Below, in pieces: positions 4,231-36,019 of a DNA stretch of 41,063 bases. The translations under genes and the position numbers were made by a program. Every line of letters begins with the position of its first letter. The first letter of the stretch is position 1. The notes under the pieces were generated by a model. It did not search any database, was not told the origin of the DNA, and saw only the letters and a program-made list of their open reading frames with translations. The stretch covers positions 1 to 41,063 of the forward strand of contig JAUVLC010000006.1 of assembly GCA_030595925.1 (NCBI GenBank). Reading direction: 5' to 3'. The stretch comes from Clostridia bacterium (GTDB lineage: Bacteria; CBDUZB01; JAGLHV01).

Positions 4231-4569
4231 ATGAAAGTGAAAGGAAAAGCAATTGCTCGTTTTACCCGTGTAGGGCAACGGAAGGTAAATCAAATATTAG
4301 ATGTAATTAGGGGAAAAAGTGTTTCCCAATCTTATAAGTTACTCGAGTTTACCAAAAAGGCGGCGACACCTATGGTAATGAAAACACTAAAGTCCGCGGT
4401 TGCCAATATTGGTAAACATGTAGATGAGAATAAGATATATGTAAACGAAACTTATGCCGGACAGGGTCCTGTTTTAAAAAGATTGCGGCCCATGGCTATG
4501 GGACGGGGAGCAATATATCGCAGGAAAACCAGTCATGTAACAATAATTGTTGGAGAGCAAGGGAAGTAA
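4231..4569 (+). CDS. rplV: Large ribosomal subunit protein uL22
   Basis: A 112-aa L22, normal length. It has VKGKAIARFTRVGQRKVNQILDVIRGKSVSQ at the start, ANIGKHVDENKIYVNETYAGQGPVLKR in the middle and the tunnel-lining beta hairpin RPMAMGRGAIYRRKTSHVTIIV. L22 reaches from the subunit surface into the exit tunnel, where macrolide-resistance changes are known in the family. GAGGGAGGAG is placed ideally before the ATG. It resumes the S10 operon after the repeat island. Confidence 0.96.
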   Translation: MKVKGKAIARFTRVGQRKVNQILDVIRGKSVSQSYKLLEFTKKAATPMVMKTLKSAVANIGKHVDENKIYVNETYAGQGPVLKRLRPMAMGRGAIYRRKTSHVTIIVGEQGK

Positions 4570-4614
4570 TTATAAAAAAATGTAAGGATAAACAAGCGGA
4601 GGAGGAACAAAAAC

Positions 4615-5361
4615 GTGGGGCAAAAAGTACATCCTAAAGGCTTTCGGTTAGGTTATATTGAAGATTGGAATGCAAAATGGTTTGGAGGAAAGAGATTTCC
4701 TCTTTTATTAGCGGAAGACTTAAAAATTCGAAAATTAATAAAAGAGAAAACAAGATATGGTGAAGTTTCTAAGGTGAAGATAGAACGGGCAGGAGATTAT
4801 GTCCGGGTGAATATTTTTACCGCTCGGCCTGGAATTATAATTGGTAAAAAAGGTCAGGATGTAGAAAATTTAAGGAAAAATATAGAAATATTAATTAATA
4901 AAAAAGCTTTTATAAATATTATTGAAATAAAAGCACCGGAATTAGAAGCTCAGTTAGTGGCAGGAAACGTTGCTTTTCAGTTGGAAAAACAAATAGCTTA
5001 TAGGAGAGCGATAAATCGTGCTATAGAACGAACAATGAGAAGAGGTGCTCTCGGAATTAAAATATGTGTTTCAGGTAGATTATCAGGAGCGGAAATAGCA
5101 CGTAGTGAGTGGATCAAAGAAGGGCGAATTCCGTTGCAGACAATGAGAGCTGATATTGATTATGGTGTTAAAGAAGCTATTACTACTTATGGCCGAATTG
5201 GTGTAAAGGTCTGGATATTCAAAAAAGAAATAATTAAGAAAGAAAGCAAGAAAATAATACCGGACAATAAAGAAATTAATAATATTGAAAATGAAAATAA
5301 AGCGAATGCAACAGCAAAATTGAGTGAGGGAGAAAAAGATGTTGATTCCGAAAAGAGTTAA
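4615..5361 (+). CDS. rpsC: Small ribosomal subunit protein uS3
   Basis: A 248-aa S3 starting [21 protein letters not shown], with a KH domain ([18 protein letters not shown]; GxxG is GKKG) and the C-terminal domain [21 protein letters not shown] and [14 protein letters not shown]3 lines the mRNA entry channel and helps unwind mRNA. The start is GTG, supported by GGAGGAGG just upstream and by the invariant family N terminus. The last ~40 residues are an extra acidic/Asn-rich tail, and the 3' end overlaps rplP by 23 bases. Confidence 0.97.
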
Positions 5362-5752
5362 ATATCGTAAATCACATCGGGGAAGAATGAAGGGAAAGGC
5401 AAAGGGAGGAACGGATGTCTCCTTTGGAGAATATGGCCTACAAGCATTAGAACCGGCATGGATTACAGGTCGTCAAATTGAATCTGCGCGTATATCTTTA
5501 ACGCGTTCAATAAAGAAAGAGGGAAAGGTTTGGATTAGAATTTTTCCGGATAAACCTGTTTCTAAAAAACCGGCTGAAACCCGGATGGGGAAGGGAAAAG
5601 GAATGCCGGAGTTTTGGGTAGCGGTAGTAAAACCGGGAAGAGTTATTTTTGAATTGGAAGGATTATCCCATGCAGATGCGAAAAACGCAATAAAGCGGGC
5701 TTCACATAAATTGCCGATTAAAACTAAGTTTTTAATGCGTAAGGAAATTTAG
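5339..5752 (+). CDS. rplP: Large ribosomal subunit protein uL16
   Basis: A 137-aa L16 starting [19 protein letters not shown], the standard family start, with [24 protein letters not shown] and [22 protein letters not shown], the loop near the A-site tRNA elbow. The ATG at 5339 is preferred over the upstream in-frame GTG at 5324 because GTGAGGGAG lies 6-7 bases before it. The start is inside the end of rpsC, so translation of the two is probably coupled. Confidence 0.97.
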
Positions 5753-26904: not shown

Positions 26905-27630
26905 GGAAAAGACAAAGACAGTCCATAGTCCATCCGCCTTACTGACAGGTGGACTTCCGCTTTGCTTCAGCAGTCGATAGTTCATAGATAGAAATGACAG
27001 TTATAAGTTATAAGTTAACTACAAAAGACAACTAATAGTCCACAGTCAAAAGATAAAAGACTGCAAATAGCAAATGGCGAATAGCAAAAGAAGAAAAACA
27101 ATTTTTCCCCCTTTGAAAAAGGGGGGTAGGGGGATTAAATAAAACAGTTAAATATTGAGATGTTATTGTAGGGGTGAACCTCTGTGTTCACCCGGACGAG
27201 AAAAATAAAGGCGAAAACATATTTTTCACTAGATGCATAATTTTACCCTATGGGCACGCAAAAACAAAATAGTCCATAGTCGACAGTCCATAGTCCATAG
27301 ACAACGGAATAAAGATAACAGATATATGAGTTTGAAGTTTAAATTGATTAAATTGAGGTTTAAAAAAAAGCGGTTTGCAAACGCTTATTTTTGTTAAAAT
27401 TTGCTATATCGTTCGAAACACATTTCGCCTTTATTATTTGGTTATATTTTTAGTTTTTTGTTTTGAATTTAGTATTTTGAATTTTGAATTTGTTTAGTAT
27501 TTTGAATTTAGGATTTAGTATTTATTCTTTTGTCTTTATCTATGGACTGTTCTTTTTCTTTTTCTTTTAACTTTATGCCTGTCTTTAACTGTATTTCGGA
27601 GTGGTCTATTTTTCCATTAGTGTTGTCCGT
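26905..27630. repeat. Repeat island after rng
   Basis: No gene is visible. Repeats shared with the other islands: AGTCCATAGTC units (about 26918-26931, 26970-26990, 27270-27302); ACAGTTATAAGTTATAAGTTAA (about 26996-27017); CCCCCTTTGAAAAAGGGGGG with a TAGGGGGAT tail at 27107-27135, preceded as at 3703-3755 by a GCAAATAGCAAATGGCGAAT-like stretch; the ATAAAGGCGAAAACAT/GCATAATTTTA unit (27201-27268); and the AACGCTT.../TTTCGCCTTTATT unit (27379-27440) followed by GTATTTTGAATTT runs to about 27530. A hairpin GGGTGAAC/GTTCACCC lies at 27172-27193. Confidence 0.88.
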
Positions 27631-28128
27631 TCATTTTTTTTTGTAATTACTGATGTTAAAAGTTTGAGCATAGTTTTTCATCTCTTTGGACGCAGATAAT
27701 ATTTCAATAGGGTTGGTGAATTCATAGTGCTGGTTGGTTATTACTCCGATTGCTACAAAAAGAACAGGAAACTGTAATTTATTTCCCTGATGATTTATGT
27801 TTTCAATAAAACCCTGTTTTTTATCCTCCAACGCATAAAAAGAAGAAATATTTTCGTCGAAATCTTCAATAATGGAAGAACATATATTATCTGCTTTTTT
27901 AGGTGTGGTTATTATAATAAACTTATTTTTGCCGGGATAGCCAACGAAGTCATCAAAAGTTTTTTTCTGATTGATAATTTTTGCTGTCTGGCAGATAAGT
28001 CTGTCACTTTTTAAATACCCATATTTATCATTGTAGCTTTTAAAATTATTTAAATCCGTATAACAGACTGCATATTTTAAATTTATAGCTAATAATTTTT
28101 CCGCTAAATTTTTTACGCAGTAATGTGG
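27631..28128 (-). pseudogene. Remnant of a degenerate GGDEF-domain protein
   Basis: Reading the minus strand from 28128 down to the stop at 27631 gives 165 codons with no stop and no ATG at the 5' end. The translation contains KYAVCYTDLNNFKSYNDKYG, then YLKSDRLICQTAKIINQ, FVGYPGKNKFIIITTP and FPVLFVAIGVITNQHYEF. This is the fold order of a diguanylate-cyclase (GGDEF) domain, but the signature loop reads PGKNK in place of GGDEF, so catalysis is not expected. A TAG in frame at 28129-28131 cuts off everything upstream. Catalytically dead GGDEF domains of this kind occur at the end of regulator proteins. I read it as a decayed gene fragment. The part from 27831 down can look like a 66-aa gene starting at TTG. 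Confidence 0.75.
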
Positions 28129-28402
28129 CTAAAAATTTATATTGCAATTTTTTTTGGATAATGTTATTATAAATTACCTTATTTGCAATGATGCATGTAT
28201 TATGTCTAAAAAAATAATGTCTACGAAAAAAAATAAGTTCTTACCTTTTATAGTCAGGTCTTTATAATTAAAATAAAATTGATAAAAAATTGTATTGAAA
28301 AAGCTTTTGAATATTTGTTGTTATAAATCGTATTCTTGGCGATGATATTTGAAATAATTTCATTTTTTGTATCTTTAAGAAACATTTATAGAGTTATGCA
28401 AA
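28129..28402. other. AT-rich spacer, nothing recognised
   Basis: About 270 bases of very AT-rich DNA upstream of the GGDEF remnant. I see no reading frame with a family resemblance, no clear hairpin and none of the dispersed repeat units. It may be the further decayed 5' part of the remnant, but the translation gives no support. Confidence 0.5.
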
Positions 28403-28545
28403 ATGACACATTCTGTCATTCCGCACTTGATGCGGAATCTATAATGTGCTTAAAATATCAATAGATTTCTGCTTTCGCAGGAATGACCCGCCTTACAAAC
28501 TGGCGGACAGGCAATAAAGGTAAAAAGGCTATTTTGCAGAAGTCT
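28403..28545. repeat. Left copy of a composite hairpin repeat
   Basis: Contains ATTCCGCA-CTTGA-TGCGGAAT (8-bp stem, 28418-28438), then ATATCAATAGATTT, TTTCTGC-TTTC-GCAGGAA and CCGCC-N9-GGCGG (about 28488-28506). Its reverse complement matches the right flank of the gene cluster at about 36117-36218 plus 36364-36384. It directly precedes the promoter region of the 28573 gene. Confidence 0.8.
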
Positions 28546-28572
28546 AAAACATTTAAGAAAAGGAGGTTGAAT

Positions 28573-29199
28573 ATGTGTCCTGGAGATAAAAAGGTTAATA
28601 AAAAAATTGAAAATTTTAAAGATTTTCATCGGCTTATACCTGAATTTGTAAAAGAGATTAATAAAAATCAGCAATTAGCTATTCGTGCGGCAGTGAATCC
28701 TTTGCTGGCTTTTGAGGAATTGGGATATGATTTACCGCCCGAAGTTCAAAAAAAAGTGGGAAGATTTATTCGTTTTCGCACTAAAGATCGCAAGCGTTTG
28801 ACAGAATTAGAGGCGGAGATTTATAAAACAGCAGGATGCACTTTTGATCTTGATTCTCCTAAGGAAGTGGAAACGGTTTTATTTGAAACTTTAAAGATGC
28901 GCAAACCTAAGGGGATGGAAGAAATGGTTACTTTAAATGTGATTGAAAAATGGATGACAATAGCAAAGAAGAAGAAAAAGAAAAAAGTAGAAAAAGGTGA
29001 TCCTCTGGAAGGATTAAAAGAAAAACATGCTATTATTGCTCCCTTATTGTCTTATCGTAAAATCCAGGCAGGTAGCTCTGGTTTTGCTCCCCGGTCTCTT
29101 TATGAAGAACTCAAAGCGGGGAAAAAGAAATTTCCTATAAGTAAAATGCGCGTGCGTTTTCCCGAACAGCACAAGCATGAGGAGGTGGAAGATGCCTAA
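28573..29199 (+). CDS. Protein resembling a stand-alone family A DNA polymerase thumb segment
   Basis: A 208-aa soluble protein. The start is fixed by AGGAGG at 28561-28566. Residues ~34-62 (QQLAIRAAVNPLLAFEELGYDLPPEVQKK) look like a short helical lead. Residues 78-112 (LEAEIYKTAGCTFDLDSPKE then VETVLFETLKM) strongly recall the PolA stretch of the type LEEEIYxLAGxxFNLNSPKQLGxxLFExL, and residues 152-180 (HAIIAPLLSYRKIQAGSSGF) recall the following HPLIxLILEYRxLxKLxSTY helix. The palm and finger motifs A, B and C are absent, so it cannot be a polymerase. A Lys run at 132-138 separates the parts. It is first of a five-gene cluster and its stop overlaps the next start by 8 bases. The function is unknown. 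Confidence 0.6.
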   Translation: MCPGDKKVNKKIENFKDFHRLIPEFVKEINKNQQLAIRAAVNPLLAFEELGYDLPPEVQKKVGRFIRFRTKDRKRLTELEAEIYKTAGCTFDLDSPKEVETVLFETLKMRKPKGMEEMVTLNVIEKWMTIAKKKKKKKVEKGDPLEGLKEKHAIIAPLLSYRKIQAGSSGFAPRSLYEELKAGKKKFPISKMRVRFPEQHKHEEVEDA

Positions 29200-32100
29200 T
29201 ACCCGAGGTTTTGAAGTAGTAGCAGAGGTTGTAGTATCAGTTTTAAGGGAAATTTTCAAAGCAGCCTGGGATAACGGAGGGACGGGTGACCCGGGGTCTA
29301 TTCCCCACGAGGTTGTTATAGAGGAAGGTTTAATGTTTGGGGCATACCAGGTAACCAGTGGTCAGGTTAGTATTCCCCAGGATGGTCTTGGTCTGAATAT
29401 GGCACCGGCTGATAACGGAATAACCGTAAGATTAGCAACAGGGATTCAGGTAGATCTGGACCCGGCTACCATACCGGTACCTTCTCTATCTCAATTTAAT
29501 ATGACCGCAGACATTGATATAACCGCTCCTTTTGGAATTATTCCGGAAACAGAGTTTAATGTAGGGGTTATTTTTGAGGGGTTGCCCCGGGATAAGGTGA
29601 GTGTTGCCCTTACTAGTGGAGACCCTATCGAACCAATCTCAGATACCCTTATTGCCGAGTATATACATAATCTTTATGAACAGAACGGAGATACTTTTCC
29701 GCATACTATTACCCTGGAGGATCAGAGCTGGGGTGCTTTTACTTTTGATGTCTTTATTGAACTTTTTGATGATCTTTCTGACCCGGCGCGACGGATTGAT
29801 GTACAACGTCCTGATCCCCATCATGTGGCCATATCTATACCCATTCATTTAAGGTTGAGTGATATAGAGTCTGCTTTGCCTGTCCTTTCTCCTATGGGAG
29901 TAAACGCCAGAATAATTATTACTGCCCCTTATGAGCAGACCTCAGGAAGAATTACCGCTAATTTAAGTGCGGCAGTAGTTACCGTAGAAGATTTAGCTTC
30001 TGCTTCAGGAATTGAAGGAAGTAATTATGATGCAAATAAAGCAGGAGCTGCTGCTTTTGGAATAGATCTTGATCAATTATTTATAACTCAGATCACTATA
30101 CAAGGTGCAGCGCTGGTTCAGGGAATAGGAGACGATGACGGAGAAATAAAAATTGATTATCCTACCGTAGCTCAAATAGAACAGTTTATCGGTGATCAGG
30201 TGCATCAGGAGTTGCTCAATCGTCGCTACATAGGAGCCTGGACACCGGAAAGCCCGGAAGGTTCTCCTGTAGAAATCGTAGAGGTTCGTCCCAAGGCTTT
30301 AGCCGATGCTTTGGCTATTGGAATCAATCCGGGAACGGGTGCTGATGAAAATCTTTTGATTAATTTTGTTCCTGCTGCTCAGGGTTTTGCTATTGCTCTG
30401 GATGCGGATTTTGTTAACCAGACAATTGACGAGATTATTGCTGCTCCTGAACCTGACGGTTTCGGAGGGGTTCCCCAGGATTTCAATAATATAGAAGGGC
30501 ATGATGCAAGGTTGAAATCGCTTAAGCATGCATTACAATCCGGTGTTATCCATTTCTGGGGGGACGTAACGGTTTATGATGTTTTTTGCAAAGCCGATGC
30601 AGATTGCAGTTTTTGGGCAGATATAAAACTTAGATGGATTCCTTCGGTTGATGGCTCCGGCGGTCAAACCCTGGAACCATATATTCATGATGATGATGTG
30701 GATTTACCCTGGTGGGCATGGCTTATTGCCGTATTGGGTTTTATTTTTGGATTGATTATCGGGATTATTATGATAGTTATTACTATAGTAATTGAACGTG
30801 TTGCTGAACGTGTTGGTGGAGCAGTGATGGAAGGCGAGGTGGCTGAGGAATTACAGGTATTTAGCGCTTGGCCCCAGGAATTGCAAGGAATCGGGACAGT
30901 TATCTCTACCTTTCAGGAAGCAGTAGGTATTGATTCTGACGGCCTTTTATTTTCAGGTTCGATATTTGTGACCGCTGCTTATAGTCTTACTTTAACTGAT
31001 CCGGCTTGTGCCGGTGGTCCTTATTCGTGTTTTGCCGGGGGGCTTCCTATTGATTTTTTTGCCGGCCCCAGCAATCCAAAAATTGATTATCACTGGAATC
31101 TTGGATCAGGAATTACTGCTCTGGGACATAATGCAAGCCGTAAATATGATGATAATGGTTTATATCGTGTTCGTTTAACTTCTACGGTTAATGAACCCGG
31201 GGGAGCAATTACTCATAATTCTGTTTTAGTTCGTGCGGAAAATGTACCGCCGGTAGTTGATGCCGGCGAGGATAAAGTGGTAAACGAGGGAGAAGAGGTT
31301 TTATTCTCCGGTAAATTTACCGATCAGGAGTGGCCGGATACCCATGAAGCTATTTGGGATTTCGGAGATGATTCGCTTCCCATAGAAGGAATGATTACCG
31401 AAACCAATAATCCTCCTCAGGCGGAGGGTGTAGTGACTGGCAGTCATGCCTATTGTGATCAGGGAGAATATACCGTAACCTTGCGTATGCGTGATGATAA
31501 CGGTGGGGTTAGTGAAGATACGCTTAAGGTTACTGTACTTAACGTAGCACCGACAGTGGATGCCGGGGAGGATATGTTTGCTTATGCTTGTACGCCGATT
31601 ACTCTGGTAGGGCGTTTTTTTGATCCCGGTTGGTGTGATACGCACATTGGTTCGTGGAATTTCGGTGATTGTACGCCTACTCATCCGGCTATTATCCGGG
31701 AGAAAAATGAACCGCCTATGGGTACGGGTATTGTGGTAGCTACTCACACTTATAATCGTTGTGGAACTTATTGGGTAGAGTGTGTGGTTATTGATGACGA
31801 TGGAGGAGTCGGTAGAGATGTTATTACGGTGCGGGTAGTGGATGTATTAAACCGTGATTTTGAATCTGGTTTTCGTAACCTTAAGATGGGAACGGTAGCC
31901 AATCATTGGGAACCTTACCCGGATAGTACCTCTACACATACATTGGGAATGGTAGAAGCGGTAGATGTTAGTACAGCATTTTTTAATGCCGAAGAATTTG
32001 TTGTTCACGGTGGACAGCGTTCTCAAAAAATAGAAGGAGTGGGTAAATTTAGTGCAGGTATTTATCAACGGGTAGGTGCTAATCTTGATTGGGATTATCA

Positions 32101-32935
32101 GGTATCGGTTTGGTATCACATAGATGAAAGAACTGGGGGCAAGTGCCGGTTGGGAATAGATCCTTTAGGGGGTACCAATCCTGCTTCAGCTGATGTGGAA
32201 TGGGTTGAAGGAAATCAACGGCACAATTGGGCACAGTTGGTCTGGCGGGTGACAGCGAAAAAGCGGGCTATTACCATTTTTCTCGAAGTAGTCGGTGAAA
32301 CACAAAATACGGCTGCTTATTTTGACGATGTTGTTTTGAGTCCGTATCCCTGTCCGTTAAAAGAACCGGAAATAATAGAACAACCCGAGCCGGAATCACG
32401 GGAAATATGTGTTAATTGGGCGGAGGAGAAAAAAGGCGGGGACGTGGGTACTGTTTATGAAAAAAACGGTTTTATTTTTAAGTCTGTGAGTCAGGAAACG
32501 TTACGCATTATAATTTGGGGTTCGCCGGAAGGTCAGGGTAAATTGGCTATTCTGCAGGAGGGAATGCAGGTTTTATTACCCTTTGTAGCTGATGCTGTTA
32601 TTGCTCATGTTGGACTTTATAGCCGGCATGCTATTATCCTAAAGGCTTTGGATGCTCAAGGTAATACCGTGGGAGAGGCGCTTACACCTGCAGCCCCGGG
32701 GGAATCTTATACCCTGGAAATAAATACAGGGGGGATTGCATCTCTTTTCTTTTCCGGAGGAGGCGGTGAAGGGTTGTTGCTTAATCTGTGTATTTCAGAG
32801 GGAGCAGAAGGAAAAAAGAGTCCGCTTAAACAAATTGAAGATGTCAAGAAAGAATTGACTCGGGTAACAGGGAAAATAGATGCTAAATTAAAGAGAAAAA
32901 GAATGAAGATAAAAAATAAAAGTAAAAGAAAATAG
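29192..32935 (+). CDS. Large PKD-domain membrane-associated protein
   Basis: A 1247-aa protein, start set by GGAGG at 29181-29185. There is no N-terminal signal peptide. Residues ~1-500 are beta-rich and unrecognised, with blocks such as MTADIDITAPFGIIPETEF and GFAIALDADFVNQTIDEII that loosely recall lipid-binding TULIP proteins (weak). Residues ~506-536 (WWAWLIAVLGFIFGLIIGII...) are one long hydrophobic segment. PKD-like domains follow at about 616-680, 687-783 (VVDAGEDKVVNEGEEVLFSG; WDFGDD) and 787-882 (VDAGEDMFAYACTPITLVGR; WNFGD). A jelly-roll, carbohydrate-binding-like module is at about 886-1052 (FESGFRNLKMGTVANHWEPY; AYFDDVVLS). The C terminus is a strongly basic tail. PKD domains usually mediate surface contacts. 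Function unknown. Confidence 0.75.
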   Translation: MPNTRGFEVVAEVVVSVLREIFKAAWDNGGTGDPGSIPHEVVIEEGLMFGAYQVTSGQVSIPQDGLGLNMAPADNGITVRLATGIQVDLDPATIPVPSLSQFNMTADIDITAPFGIIPETEFNVGVIFEGLPRDKVSVALTSGDPIEPISDTLIAEYIHNLYEQNGDTFPHTITLEDQSWGAFTFDVFIELFDDLSDPARRIDVQRPDPHHVAISIPIHLRLSDIESALPVLSPMGVNARIIITAPYEQTSGRITANLSAAVVTVEDLASASGIEGSNYDANKAGAAAFGIDLDQLFITQITIQGAALVQGIGDDDGEIKIDYPTVAQIEQFIGDQVHQELLNRRYIGAWTPESPEGSPVEIVEVRPKALADALAIGINPGTGADENLLINFVPAAQGFAIALDADFVNQTIDEIIAAPEPDGFGGVPQDFNNIEGHDARLKSLKHALQSGVIHFWGDVTVYDVFCKADADCSFWADIKLRWIPSVDGSGGQTLEPYIHDDDVDLPWWAWLIAVLGFIFGLIIGIIMIVITIVIERVAERVGGAVMEGEVAEELQVFSAWPQELQGIGTVISTFQEAVGIDSDGLLFSGSIFVTAAYSLTLTDPACAGGPYSCFAGGLPIDFFAGPSNPKIDYHWNLGSGITALGHNASRKYDDNGLYRVRLTSTVNEPGGAITHNSVLVRAENVPPVVDAGEDKVVNEGEEVLFSGKFTDQEWPDTHEAIWDFGDDSLPIEGMITETNNPPQAEGVVTGSHAYCDQGEYTVTLRMRDDNGGVSEDTLKVTVLNVAPTVDAGEDMFAYACTPITLVGRFFDPGWCDTHIGSWNFGDCTPTHPAIIREKNEPPMGTGIVVATHTYNRCGTYWVECVVIDDDGGVGRDVITVRVVDVLNRDFESGFRNLKMGTVANHWEPYPDSTSTHTLGMVEAVDVSTAFFNAEEFVVHGGQRSQKIEGVGKFSAGIYQRVGANLDWDYQVSVWYHIDERTGGKCRLGIDPLGGTNPASADVEWVEGNQRHNWAQLVWRVTAKKRAITIFLEVVGETQNTAAYFDDVVLSPYPCPLKEPEIIEQPEPESREICVNWAEEKKGGDVGTVYEKNGFIFKSVSQETLRIIIWGSPEGQGKLAILQEGMQVLLPFVADAVIAHVGLYSRHAIILKALDAQGNTVGEALTPAAPGESYTLEINTGGIASLFFSGGGGEGLLLNLCISEGAEGKKSPLKQIEDVKKELTRVTGKIDAKLKRKRMKIKNKSKRK

Positions 32936-32974
32936 GTTTAAAGAAATAAAATTTATTGTTGGAAAGGAGAAATT

Positions 32975-33322
32975 ATGCCCGAAGAAAGAATAGTTAAAAT
33001 TGTCGCCTGGCCTAAAGAACCGGCAAAATTGGAGCATCGTTTTAATAGTGAAAAACCCTGTCCTGTTTCTATTTCTTTTGAAAAAACTCCGGCTAATGTA
33101 ATCGTTCATTCTAATCCCAAAGAACCGCTTTATGTAGATATGGCGATGAATGTTATAGCGAGGGAAACAATTCCTGTATGTATTAAAATGTGTGAACCAA
33201 TCTGTGTAAAAAGCAAATATGCTATTGCTATCGACATTTTTGACCGTCCGGTGGCCAACATTGTTTTGCAGGGTGAGACCAGAATATCTAATTGTCAAGA
33301 GGAGGGGAAAGAAGTTGAATAA
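32975..33322 (+). CDS. Small beta-rich hypothetical protein with Cys motif
   Basis: A 115-aa protein I do not recognise. AAAGGAG sits before the ATG. The sequence alternates hydrophobic and polar residues as in a beta sandwich, with IPVCIKMCEPICVKSKYAIA near residues 67-86 holding three of its cysteines, and FDRPVANIVLQGETRISNC near the end. There is no signal peptide or membrane segment. It lies 39 bases after the PKD gene, and its stop overlaps the next start by 8 bases, so it is part of the same operon and probably acts with its neighbours. Confidence 0.7.
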   Translation: MPEERIVKIVAWPKEPAKLEHRFNSEKPCPVSISFEKTPANVIVHSNPKEPLYVDMAMNVIARETIPVCIKMCEPICVKSKYAIAIDIFDRPVANIVLQGETRISNCQEEGKEVE

Positions 33323-34100
33323 AAGTAAGAAAACACCAAAAAGCAGATTAAACATGACCGAAGAAGATTCGACAACAAAGTTTCAAACAGGTGGTTTGGG
33401 TTCTAAAAAAGGAAACAAAGAGTGGACAGGAACAGGTGCAGGGGAAAAGAAGAAAATAAGCCAGGATGTAATTAAAGGATTAGCCAATGCTACCTCTCGT
33501 GTAGTACGGCAGGCGGCTTCCATTTTGGAAGAAGAAGTCGCTGCCGGTATTGTGGCGGCAAAGGATGTAGAAGACCGTTTGGTTAATGTAAAGGACTTAC
33601 GTTCCGGGAAACCGGACGAGGTAATACACCGCTTTCGGCGTGATGCACACGAGGTAGTGGACATTTTTATTGATTTAGCTCATGCTGCTACTCAGTATGT
33701 CGGAGGGCTTGCTCAACGGGTAGTTACTATCCGGGGATCAGAAAAAGAAAAAAAACCGGAATATACGGCTTCCGGGCAATTACCCACGCTTAAAACCAAT
33801 AAAGCAATGAAACCGGGTGAGAGGGCTAAAATCCCGATGAATTTAGAAAATAACAGTGATAAAATAATGGATAAATTCGGTTTTCACAGTACCGATTTAG
33901 TAGATGCTTCCGGTCGTAGGATTGCAGCTGAAAAGATAACATTTACTCCTTCTGCTCTTTCCCTGGCTCCATATAAAACCCAGAAGGTAATTGTATCGGT
34001 AAATATTCCTGCCAAAACCTCCGCTGGTATTTATTCCGGTTTAATTCGGGCTACAAAGATGGACCAATTACAGGCGATATTGGTAATTCAAGTCGATTGA
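33315..34100 (+). CDS. Helical (phasin-like) plus Ig-like domain protein
   Basis: A 261-aa protein read from TTG 33315; GAGGAGGGG directly upstream and the 8-base overlap with the previous stop support this start over the unsupported ATG 33354. The N-terminal ~40 residues are polar. Residues ~50-140 are long amphipathic helices (ISQDVIKGLANATSRVVRQA; FRRDAHEVVDIFIDLAHAAT) that loosely recall phasins or other surface-coating helices. Residues ~160-261 form an Ig-like domain of the NEW3/CARDB kind (KPGERAKIPMNLENNS; FTPSALSLAPYKTQKVIVSV; IPAKTSAGIYSGLIRATKM). There is no signal peptide. Function unknown. Confidence 0.7.
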   Translation: MNKSKKTPKSRLNMTEEDSTTKFQTGGLGSKKGNKEWTGTGAGEKKKISQDVIKGLANATSRVVRQAASILEEEVAAGIVAAKDVEDRLVNVKDLRSGKPDEVIHRFRRDAHEVVDIFIDLAHAATQYVGGLAQRVVTIRGSEKEKKPEYTASGQLPTLKTNKAMKPGERAKIPMNLENNSDKIMDKFGFHSTDLVDASGRRIAAEKITFTPSALSLAPYKTQKVIVSVNIPAKTSAGIYSGLIRATKMDQLQAILVIQVD

Positions 34101-34141
34101 TTTTGGCGTGATTAAGGGAGAATAATTAAGGAGTCTTATCT

Positions 34142-35182
34142 ATGCCTGAGGTTAATCGTTTTGAATTAGTGGAAACAGCCTTAAAACATTATAAAGATAT
34201 TACGATGGAGACTCTTTTGACTTTTTTACCGTCAAAAGAGCCCAGGCGGCATCTTTACGATTTAATCCCTTCTTATCCTCTGCGTCCGGGAAAAGGTTTA
34301 CGTCCCGGATTATGTATGGCTACCTGTGAAGCTTTTGGGGGAAATGTCCGTAATGCTCTCAGGTCGGCTGTGGCGATTGAATTGTTTCACAATGCTTTTT
34401 TAATTCATGATGATGTGGAAGACGGGAGTGAATATCGCCGGGGAGAGAAGACTTTACATGCTAAGTATGGAATGGAAATTGCCGTGAATGCCGGTGATGC
34501 GATGAATGTTCTCAGCATTCGACCCTTAATGGAAAATCTTACCGTTCTCGGTCCGGAACTAACCTGGCAAATTTTTACTGAGATTGAACATATGGTTCGA
34601 CAGTCGGTAGAGGGACAGGCTATGGAGCTGGGTTGGGTGCATGATAATATTTGTGATTTAACCGAAGAAGATTATTTGCGTACGACCCTTAAAAAGACCT
34701 GCTGGTATACCTCTATTCATCCCTGTCGAATCGGAGCATTGATTGCCAGAGGTGGAGAAACGAATTTAGACCGTTTTAATCGGTTTGGCTTTTATATGGG
34801 AGCGGCTTTTCAAATCCAGGACGATATTCTTAATCTTGTAGGACAGCGTAAAAAATACGGCAAGGAAATTGGTGGAGATATCTGGGAAGGAAAGCGCACG
34901 GTAATGTTAATTCATTTACTAAACAATTGTACTAAAAGGGAAAAGGAAAAAATAAAAATATTTTTGTCCCTGCCGCGCAAACAGCGCTTGCCAAAAGATG
35001 TTAAATGGGTATATTCTTTAATGTCCAAATATGGGAGTATCGAATATGCCCGCAAGAATGCCAGCCAATTGGCTGGAGCAGCTTTACGCGAATTTTTCGT
35101 GGCCTATGGGGATTTGCCGGACACCCAGGCTAAGCAGTTTATTTACGACATTGTGCTGTATATGATTGGGCGGGAGATTTAA
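34142..35182 (+). CDS. Trans-polyprenyl diphosphate synthase family protein
   Basis: A 346-aa all-helical isoprenyl diphosphate synthase. RPGKGLRPGL binds the pyrophosphate; the first Asp-rich motif is D90-D-V-E-D94 in IHDDVEDGSEYRRGEKTLH; the second is D227-D-I-L-N231 in AAFQIQDDILNLVG, where the usual last Asp is Asn, as in some GGPP synthases. Both Mg-binding sites are otherwise intact, so it is probably active in making a C15-C20 or longer prenyl diphosphate. Chain length cannot be fixed by eye. AAGGAG precedes the ATG. It is not beside ubiquinone, menaquinone or carotenoid genes but ends the five-gene cluster. Confidence 0.88.
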   Translation: MPEVNRFELVETALKHYKDITMETLLTFLPSKEPRRHLYDLIPSYPLRPGKGLRPGLCMATCEAFGGNVRNALRSAVAIELFHNAFLIHDDVEDGSEYRRGEKTLHAKYGMEIAVNAGDAMNVLSIRPLMENLTVLGPELTWQIFTEIEHMVRQSVEGQAMELGWVHDNICDLTEEDYLRTTLKKTCWYTSIHPCRIGALIARGGETNLDRFNRFGFYMGAAFQIQDDILNLVGQRKKYGKEIGGDIWEGKRTVMLIHLLNNCTKREKEKIKIFLSLPRKQRLPKDVKWVYSLMSKYGSIEYARKNASQLAGAALREFFVAYGDLPDTQAKQFIYDIVLYMIGREI

Positions 35183-35191
35183 AGGTTTTTA

Positions 35192-36019
35192 TTATTTTTG
35201 CTGCATCATTTGCTGCATCATTTCCTGCATATTGGGCATACCGGCCGGCATGGCACTTCCTTTTGTTTCTACCTTGTCCGGGTCAAACAAATCATCGGAT
35301 AATCCCTTGTTTAGTTTTAAAGACCGTACTAATAAAGTAGAGCTAAGCTGTTTACCTGAATATATTTGGGTTTTATAAGGTATTTTCCATATACCTTTTA
35401 TTTTCTTGAAATCAGAGTTTATTATGGATAATACCCTTTCTTTTTCTCCCTGACCTAATGCTTTAATTAAAAGCAGATTTTTCTTTTCGAGCCATATTTT
35501 AGTGAAAGAAAATGAATCAGTAGGTTTGAATTCAACTACATAACAGTTATGTTTGCCTATTTTTTCAGTGCCGGTAATTTTTGCTTTTGTCGGTAATTGG
35601 TCGTACCAGTTTGCACCTGTTTGATAATTTTTTTGTTCTTTCGGGGAAAGTTTTTTCTTGCCCATAAAAGGTGAAATTACCCACTCGTTCCGGCCATCGG
35701 AAATAAAGATTGTTTTCATTGTTTTCATTCCCGCTGGATTTTCTGCGTCAGCCGGTGTCGGTATGCTTGTTTCTACACGGTGCTTTTTGCCTTTACTATA
35801 GACTTTATTTTTTGAGACTACCTGGTTTTTGTCATGATGGATTTGCATTTCCTGAACGATAGTCATATCTTTGACCTCTTTTTCAAAAGAGGCATATTTT
35901 CCCTTTAATTTTTTATGAATGCTTGACCATTCTGCGGCAAATCCTTGATTAATTCCTACGCTTAGACTTAAAAATGCCATTAATAATACAATTTTTCCCG
36001 GGCTGAATTTTTTTATCAT
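35192..36019 (-). CDS. LolA-like outer-membrane lipoprotein-sorting protein
   Basis: A 275-aa secreted protein. Residues 1-29 form a signal peptide with cleavage likely after FAA. The rest has the half-barrel pattern of LolA/RseB-like proteins: DMTIVQEMQIHHDKNQVVSK, KTIFISDGRNEWVISPFMGKK, KIGKHNCYVVEFKPTDSFSFTKIWLEKKNLLLIKA and FKKIKGIWKIPYKTQI. Family members carry lipoproteins or other lipids across the periplasm. The last ~20 residues are an unusual Met/Gln tail (MPNMQEMMQQMMQQK). The gene converges on the polyprenyl synthase with 9 bases between the stops. GGAGG lies 11 bases before the ATG. Confidence 0.75.
   Translation of the reverse strand: MIKKFSPGKIVLLMAFLSLSVGINQGFAAEWSSIHKKLKGKYASFEKEVKDMTIVQEMQIHHDKNQVVSKNKVYSKGKKHRVETSIPTPADAENPAGMKTMKTIFISDGRNEWVISPFMGKKKLSPKEQKNYQTGANWYDQLPTKAKITGTEKIGKHNCYVVEFKPTDSFSFTKIWLEKKNLLLIKALGQGEKERVLSIINSDFKKIKGIWKIPYKTQIYSGKQLSSTLLVRSLKLNKGLSDDLFDPDKVETKGSAMPAGMPNMQEMMQQMMQQK

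Follow-up and report, generated by a model that had tools for sequence, protein, structure and literature searches.

Introduction

Several described systems come close to the locus considered here. Family 2B encapsulin systems carry a polyprenyl transferase or a terpene cyclase as cargo (PMC8346489). TULIP proteins include BPI, LBP, CETP and JHBP, and in bacteria P47, OrfX2, YceB, DUF4403, DUF2140 and DUF2993 (PMC6791001). Here we describe five co-directional genes, P1 to P5, at positions 28573-35182 of a 41,063-nucleotide stretch from a Clostridia bacterium (contig JAUVLC010000006.1, assembly GCA_030595925.1; the whole stretch is called the window). They encode a protein with a segment resembling the DNA polymerase I thumb (P1), a giant protein with a predicted TULIP domain and PKD repeats (P2), a small four-cysteine protein (P3), a protein with a helical region and an immunoglobulin (Ig)-like domain (P4) and a polyprenyl synthase (P5).

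The existence of these genes as a conserved system and the physical coupling of P4 to its partners are well supported, while its chemistry and location, including the assembly, the lipid cargo and the roles of P1 and P3, are what we infer. No described system in the open-access literature searched, which did not cover bioRxiv and subscription papers, fits the five-gene cluster, and no published description of it was found there. Our preferred interpretation, held at rather less than even confidence, is a modular, horizontally shared isoprenoid system, in which an assembly scaffolded by P4 around a synthase of the geranylgeranyl diphosphate (GGPP) type would make and hold a prenyl lipid, with P2 as its carrier.

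A five-gene operon that recurs in distant phyla

Relatives were collected by scanning an alignment of the P5 synthase, seeded by two peptide patterns, against 84,980 species genomes. This yielded at least 80 loci, with P5 subfamily identities of 42-99% over the 80 listed; given this seeding and listing, frequencies among them are not population estimates. The open reading frames of these 80 loci, called mechanically, were clustered without the other genes of the window as bait. The commonest neighbour families were nonetheless P4 (54), geranylgeranyl reductase (GGR)-like flavin adenine dinucleotide (FAD) proteins (38), P3 (24), P2 (19) and P1 (19).

Homologues of all five genes are present at 18 loci besides the window (19 with it), in hosts labelled Bacteroidota, Gemmatimonadota, Pseudomonadota, Actinomycetota, Thermodesulfobacteriota and Myxococcota/Deltaproteobacteria, and hence in at least six phyla. 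Since isolates of Chitinophaga, Marinilabilia, Pinibacter, Lewinella and Desertimonas are among these hosts, bin contamination does not explain the recurrence. An earlier note on this DNA, made from the sequence alone, had suggested sharing between bacteria; the genes indeed stand together in distant phyla rather than being scattered.

In the window, all five genes lie on the forward strand and have ribosome sites. P1 (28573-29199, 208 amino acids) has AAGGAGG ahead of its ATG and an alternative, longer ATG start at 28483. It overlaps P2 (29192-32935, 1247 amino acids) by 8 bases, and a gap of 39 bp separates P2 from P3 (32975-33322, 115 amino acids). A second 8-base overlap joins P3 to P4 (33315-34100, 261 amino acids), which starts at a TTG with AGAGGAGG upstream, and 41 bp further on lies P5 (34142-35182, 346 amino acids). 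The operon is thus as the earlier note had drawn it, overlaps and ribosome sites included, and its domain calls for the five proteins, given below with their scores, are borne out. Both other genomes of the window genus have the same gene context.

Two modules in changing surroundings

The cluster consists of two modules, P1-P2 and P3-P4-P5, which swap order, diverge as pairs and occur separately. The earlier reading of the genes as one system holds, but a single unit of all five is not supported. Sequence-distance correlations over 18 loci are 0.80 for P1-P2, 0.71 for P4-P5 and 0.41-0.49 across modules, all beyond permutation. Where all five genes are present (architecture A), six loci including the window have the exact order P1 P2 P3 P4 P5, and the remainder have orders such as P3 P4 P5 (GGR) P1 P2, with gaps mostly of a few tens of bases. 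P1 and P2 occur alone in a genome of another phylum (G125; locus L111, 7969-9738) that has no synthase of the P5 subfamily; its P1 lacks the polymerase thumb and its P2 consists of the TULIP part only. Conversely, Massilia and others have P3-P4-P5 without P1-P2.

Four further architectures surround the synthase. In flavobacteria and relatives the order is b10-Ig9-Ig17-ph11-P4-P5-GGR (architecture B). In Myxococcota, ph25 and P5 are accompanied by an HpnE/phytoene-desaturase-type oxidoreductase (architecture C). Cyanobacteria, Dormiibacterota, Roseobacter and others have b10, Ig proteins, a methyltransferase, P5 and CrtC-like proteins (architecture D). In Acaryochloris, Geodermatophilaceae and a Ruegeria megaplasmid, an encapsulin shell, a DUF3237-like protein and a desaturase-like protein accompany P5 and P4 (architecture E). 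A family of about 400 amino acids without a Pfam match (f31) also lies beside the synthase in 11 loci, for example at 4503-5744 of locus L074 and in other Myxococcota.

An encapsulin gene is present in four relatives (L050, L051, L091 and L147). With a score of 105.7, the shell from Ruegeria clears the NCBIfam cut-off of 100 for family 1, and two other shells match below it. The Ruegeria cluster (L147, plasmid NZ_CP031947, 8115-13490) encodes the family 1 shell, a DUF3237 protein, a desaturase-like FAD protein, a P5-type synthase and an Ig-only P4, and may represent an isoprenoid encapsulin that does not belong to family 2B. The P4 proteins of L050 (11058-11819, MKHYRRKP) and L147 (13020-13490, MPYFERKP) start alike, possibly with a targeting peptide; a start of this type is absent in L051 and L091.

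P4 and P5 form the constant core

An alignment of 31 members resolves P4 into a helical region (ILEEExAxG...RFRxDAHE) and an Ig/NEW3-like domain. Profile comparison unites P4 with ph11, ph25 and Ig17 in one superfamily (98.4, 95.5 and 94.8% probability), and 72 of 85 loci have a member of it no more than 300 bp from P5. The association also holds when P4 is the query. A search of 200 Chitinophagaceae-centred genomes gave five matches, all beside a synthase and two of them new; in 15 cluster-bearing genomes each strong match was the cluster copy, weaker second matches occurring only in the adjoining ph11 gene. Among 60 genomes, nearly all of different families, P4 alone had one match outside the genus, in a Tectomicrobia bin. 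There, P4-type proteins lie beside a synthase 52% identical to P5, an isopentenyl diphosphate isomerase (IDI), Ig proteins, an SCP2-like protein and a further protein that resembles CrtC-type hydratases by eye and has no Pfam match; SCP2-like, IDI and CrtC-like genes are found at locus L009.

Three natural fusions join P4 to its neighbours: P4::P5 (L087, 548 amino acids), P4 helix::P3 (L026, 156 amino acids) and desaturase::P4-Ig (L094, 844 amino acids). Together with the adjacency, they are good evidence that P4 is physically coupled to P5 and other partners. The multiprotein assembly that the earlier note proposed gains indirect support from these fusions and from the paired divergence. Identity of P4 as a phasin, a polyhydroxyalkanoate granule protein, was considered and rejected, as Pfam gives only weak Ig-type matches over the 31 members.

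P5 belongs to the polyprenyl synthases (PF00348, 3.7e-59) and has the subfamily motif KKTCWYTxxxPCRIGA. Its first aspartate-rich motif, DDVED (34409-34423), is DDxxD in all 76 family members, and its second, DDILN (34820-34834), is DDxxN in 70 of the 76; with both kept, P5 should be active. The best curated models are short-chain and GGPP enzymes, although P5 scores below every equivalog cut-off. A GGR gene adjoins the synthase in about half of the loci, with members above the TIGR02032 cut-off in many. From the ranking of the models and these neighbours, the most likely product is GGPP. A housekeeping role for P5 is unlikely, since a second prenyl synthase, 29% identical, is encoded on another contig.

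P2 is a predicted TULIP protein

The N-terminal 612 residues of P2 (29192-31027) were modelled with AlphaFold2 from an alignment of 20 members (predicted local distance difference test, pLDDT, 80.5; predicted template modelling score, pTM, 0.67). The model is a two-lobed fold that ends in a long hydrophobic helix (residues 507-558, 30710-30865), whose hydropathy exceeds 1.6 in all 19 members. All top Foldseek matches in the PDB are TULIP proteins: OrfX3 (2.8e-10), BPI (4.8e-10) and CETP (9.1e-10), followed by LBP and OrfX2 (E up to 2.1e-7), all at probability 1.00. Weaker matches, to SPLUNC1, a beta-carotene-binding protein and a juvenile-hormone-binding protein, are likewise TULIP. The N-terminus is thus predicted to be a TULIP lipid-binding fold. 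Neither the window P2 nor its 20 homologues matched Pfam TULIP families in sequence, and there was no sequence match to the PDB, so that P2 would represent a new bacterial TULIP family. The earlier statement that the first four proteins are without a known job is partly superseded by this model.

The hydrophobic helix, unmentioned in the earlier note, lies near residue 510 and could anchor P2 to a membrane or lipid body. PKD repeats (30989-31861; PF18911, 7.7e-35, in three stretches) are followed by a MAM-like jelly-roll segment (32102-32356; PF00629, 0.0017, below the Pfam cut-off) and a C-terminal domain of approximate limits (32405-32797), which is homologous to an extension that long-form P3 proteins elsewhere carry at their C-terminus (hhalign, 97.4%). 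By hydropathy, no signal peptide is present in the P1-P4 families, in agreement with the earlier note.

P1 contains a polymerase thumb, and P3 four invariant cysteines

P1 has three parts. An N-terminal module (28573-28779, NPLLAxExxGY...RF) is conserved in 19 members and in the thumb-less P1 of L111, which also keeps the C-terminal tail (29080-29199, YEELKxGKxKxPIxxxRxRF). Between the conserved NPLLALEELGY segment and this tail, the thumb forms a single insert (28780-29079; PF00476, 8.9e-10, above cut-off). It is matched in 15 of 19 members, and the family profile meets the thumb of Taq polymerase I at 7.8e-10, so the homology is genuine. P1 has no palm, fingers or catalytic residues, the PF00476 match ending at profile position 90 of 381. 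P1 may be an adaptor in which a polymerase thumb has been exapted for structure.

P3 is a small beta protein (CxxxCEPIC...C) with four cysteines (69, 73, 77 and 107) invariant over 22 homologues. It looks like b10 by eye; profile comparison was not significant (0.8%), and homology is not claimed.

Horizontal spread and flanking DNA

In a P5 tree, read without the row for L085 (a mispicked paralogue), the phyla are mixed among one another: the 13 group labels require 20 changes, with 12 the minimum. Nearest to the P5 of the window are a Chlorobi bin and Syntrophobacterales. The synthase core is also found on megaplasmids. Base composition differs too. The six 1-kb windows over 29001-35000 have a guanine-plus-cytosine (GC) content of 0.415-0.454 and are the six highest of 41, all others reaching at most 0.40, which bears out the lower AT content that the earlier note had judged by eye. 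By gene, P2 (0.441), P4 (0.422) and P5 (0.424) stand above their neighbours (0.33-0.36), while P1 (0.368) and P3 (0.382) are nearer background. Tree, composition and megaplasmid copies support horizontal sharing of the unit across bacterial phyla.

P4-P5 pairs are also present in two bins labelled Bathyarchaeota (L027 and L029, the latter on a 256-kb contig), which may reflect transfer from a bacterium to an archaeon, or binning error. Scans of viral contigs and a tblastn search of P2 against phages and plasmids gave no match, and an origin from a virus, phage or plasmid is rejected, the synthase core alone having been met on megaplasmids. In single-protein searches for close homologues on plasmids only genuine polA genes matched.

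Upstream of the operon lies a 1.67-kb AT-rich gap (26905-28572, GC 0.30) with no Rfam match. Within it, GACAGTCCATAGTCCAT occurs as a pair of short direct repeats, starting at 26917 and 27282, and CCGCCTTAC...GCGGAC is a near-repeat found at 26934 and 28488. Downstream, a protein of the LolA-like outer-membrane lipoprotein-sorting family is encoded on the reverse strand (35192-36019; PF17131, 2.3e-12). Its gene runs convergently towards the operon, and the synteny is conserved within the genus.

A proposed prenyl-lipid system and its alternatives

In the system we favour, the P3-P4-P5 module would be the core. P5 would make a medium-chain prenyl diphosphate, and P4 would gather P5 and its partner enzymes into an assembly of proteins that is probably cytosolic. 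The P1-P2 module would act as lipid carrier: the TULIP domain of P2 would take up the prenyl lipid, its hydrophobic helix and PKD/jelly-roll part would attach it to a membrane or a lipid particle, and its dedicated partner would be P1, with the reused thumb as a structural adaptor. Elsewhere the core is paired with GGR, phytoene-desaturase-like or CrtC-like proteins, extra Ig proteins or encapsulin, so the chemistry of the prenyl product presumably varies. The isoprenoid theme and lipid link of the earlier note are supported, whereas its isoprenoid anchor is not. A bolder version, that the system is a protein-built prenyl-lipid body of a new prokaryotic class, with a P4-scaffolded synthase core and exchangeable handling modules, spread across phyla and possibly into archaea, we regard as doubtful.

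Several points weigh against the proposal. Domains of the PKD, MAM-like and NEW3-like types usually lie outside the cytoplasm. No GGR above cut-off is found in the window genus, and the occurrence of P1-P2 in G125 without the synthase means that P2 need not carry this particular lipid. The TULIP assignment comes from one model built on 20 sequences, and global TM-scores of its matches are low (0.13-0.37) despite an E value of 2.8e-10; a different hinge between the lobes is an unproven explanation. The P3 model is poor (pLDDT 49.6) and not usable. Finally, the system is known here from genes and predicted structure, from which we infer product, ligand and complex.

Other explanations were weighed. 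The constant synthase amid changing tailoring enzymes (GGR, desaturase-like, CrtC-like, methyltransferase), the megaplasmid copies and the TULIP carrier would also suit a terpenoid secondary-metabolite pathway, in which P5 feeds host tailoring enzymes and the accessory proteins help a hydrophobic product to exit or reach the envelope. Yet no terpene cyclase is among the conserved neighbour families, no transporter family recurs in the 80 loci listed, and P4, which is not an enzyme, is retained far more consistently than any of the tailoring enzymes; we consider this pathway rather unlikely. Somewhat less probable still is a surface or envelope structure, in which the PKD/Ig proteins would leave the cell through an export route not yet recognised and be held at the membrane by a prenyl lipid. 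Its PKD, MAM-like and NEW3-like domains and the hydrophobic helix in every P2 fit such a structure, but no family has a signal peptide, no secretion or lipidation gene recurs in those 80 loci, and four relatives encode encapsulin, a cytosolic shell. The surface position considered in the earlier note is accordingly not supported.

That OrfX3 and OrfX2, as well as BPI, are among the best fold matches of P2 raises the prospect of an antagonism-related accessory system resembling the OrfX/P47 TULIP proteins, in which the prenyl lipid would serve as membrane-active cargo. This is improbable: the likeness is at fold level only, with no P47/OrfX Pfam sequence match, no toxin gene recurs beside the cluster, and P1-P5 match no PADLOC model, which also sets aside a known anti-phage defence system. 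As for a chance neighbourhood of unrelated genes in one genome, the dissimilarity of the genes and nothing more speaks for it, and the 18 other five-gene loci and the fusions refute it, leaving it next to no probability.

Comparison with known systems

One transferable unit here joins a prenyl-lipid synthase with a putative helix-Ig scaffold, a giant bacterial protein predicted to be of the TULIP type and an exapted polymerase thumb, and recurs in cultured organisms such as Chitinophaga, Massilia, Marinilabilia and Archangium. P2 shares with TULIP proteins the predicted two-lobed tubular fold of its N-terminus. It differs in being fused to a hydrophobic helix, PKD repeats and a jelly-roll, and in having P1, and usually a prenyl synthase, encoded alongside; unlike in OrfX/P47 systems, no orfX-p47 cluster or neighbouring toxin gene recurs in the 80 loci listed. 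P1 has about 100 residues in common with family A DNA polymerase I, corresponding to the thumb subdomain, but has no polymerase or nuclease domain and carries extra N- and C-terminal segments, and its thumb is dispensable in G125. Reuse of a polymerase subdomain away from replication is rare, and P1 would be one such case.

P5 resembles the GGPP synthases IdsA and CrtE in catalytic motifs and fold family, and GGR (TIGR02032) is adjacent in many loci, for which the system offers a hypothesis of function for bacterial geranylgeranyl reductase genes. However, P5 forms a distinct subfamily, and neither phytoene synthase nor archaeal lipid or chlorophyll genes are among its recurrent neighbours.

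Like family 2B encapsulin systems, the locus has a related trans-prenyl synthase (P5 vs NF041169, E 2.8e-52) in a protein-assembly operon, and its relatives have IDI, methyltransferase and dehydrogenase neighbours and, in four cases of the P4-P5 core, an encapsulin gene. In contrast, no HK97-fold shell is encoded among the window open reading frames or in P1-P2-bearing loci, P5 scores 178 bits against a cut-off of 450 for the f2 cargo model NF041169, the shells of the relatives match the family 1 model and not family 2B, and a P4-type partner is not described for family 2B (PMC8346489). If the system is a lipid-making particle, bacteria would have another type of compartment in addition to encapsulins and microcompartments, an idea that the use of encapsulin by some relatives makes directly testable.

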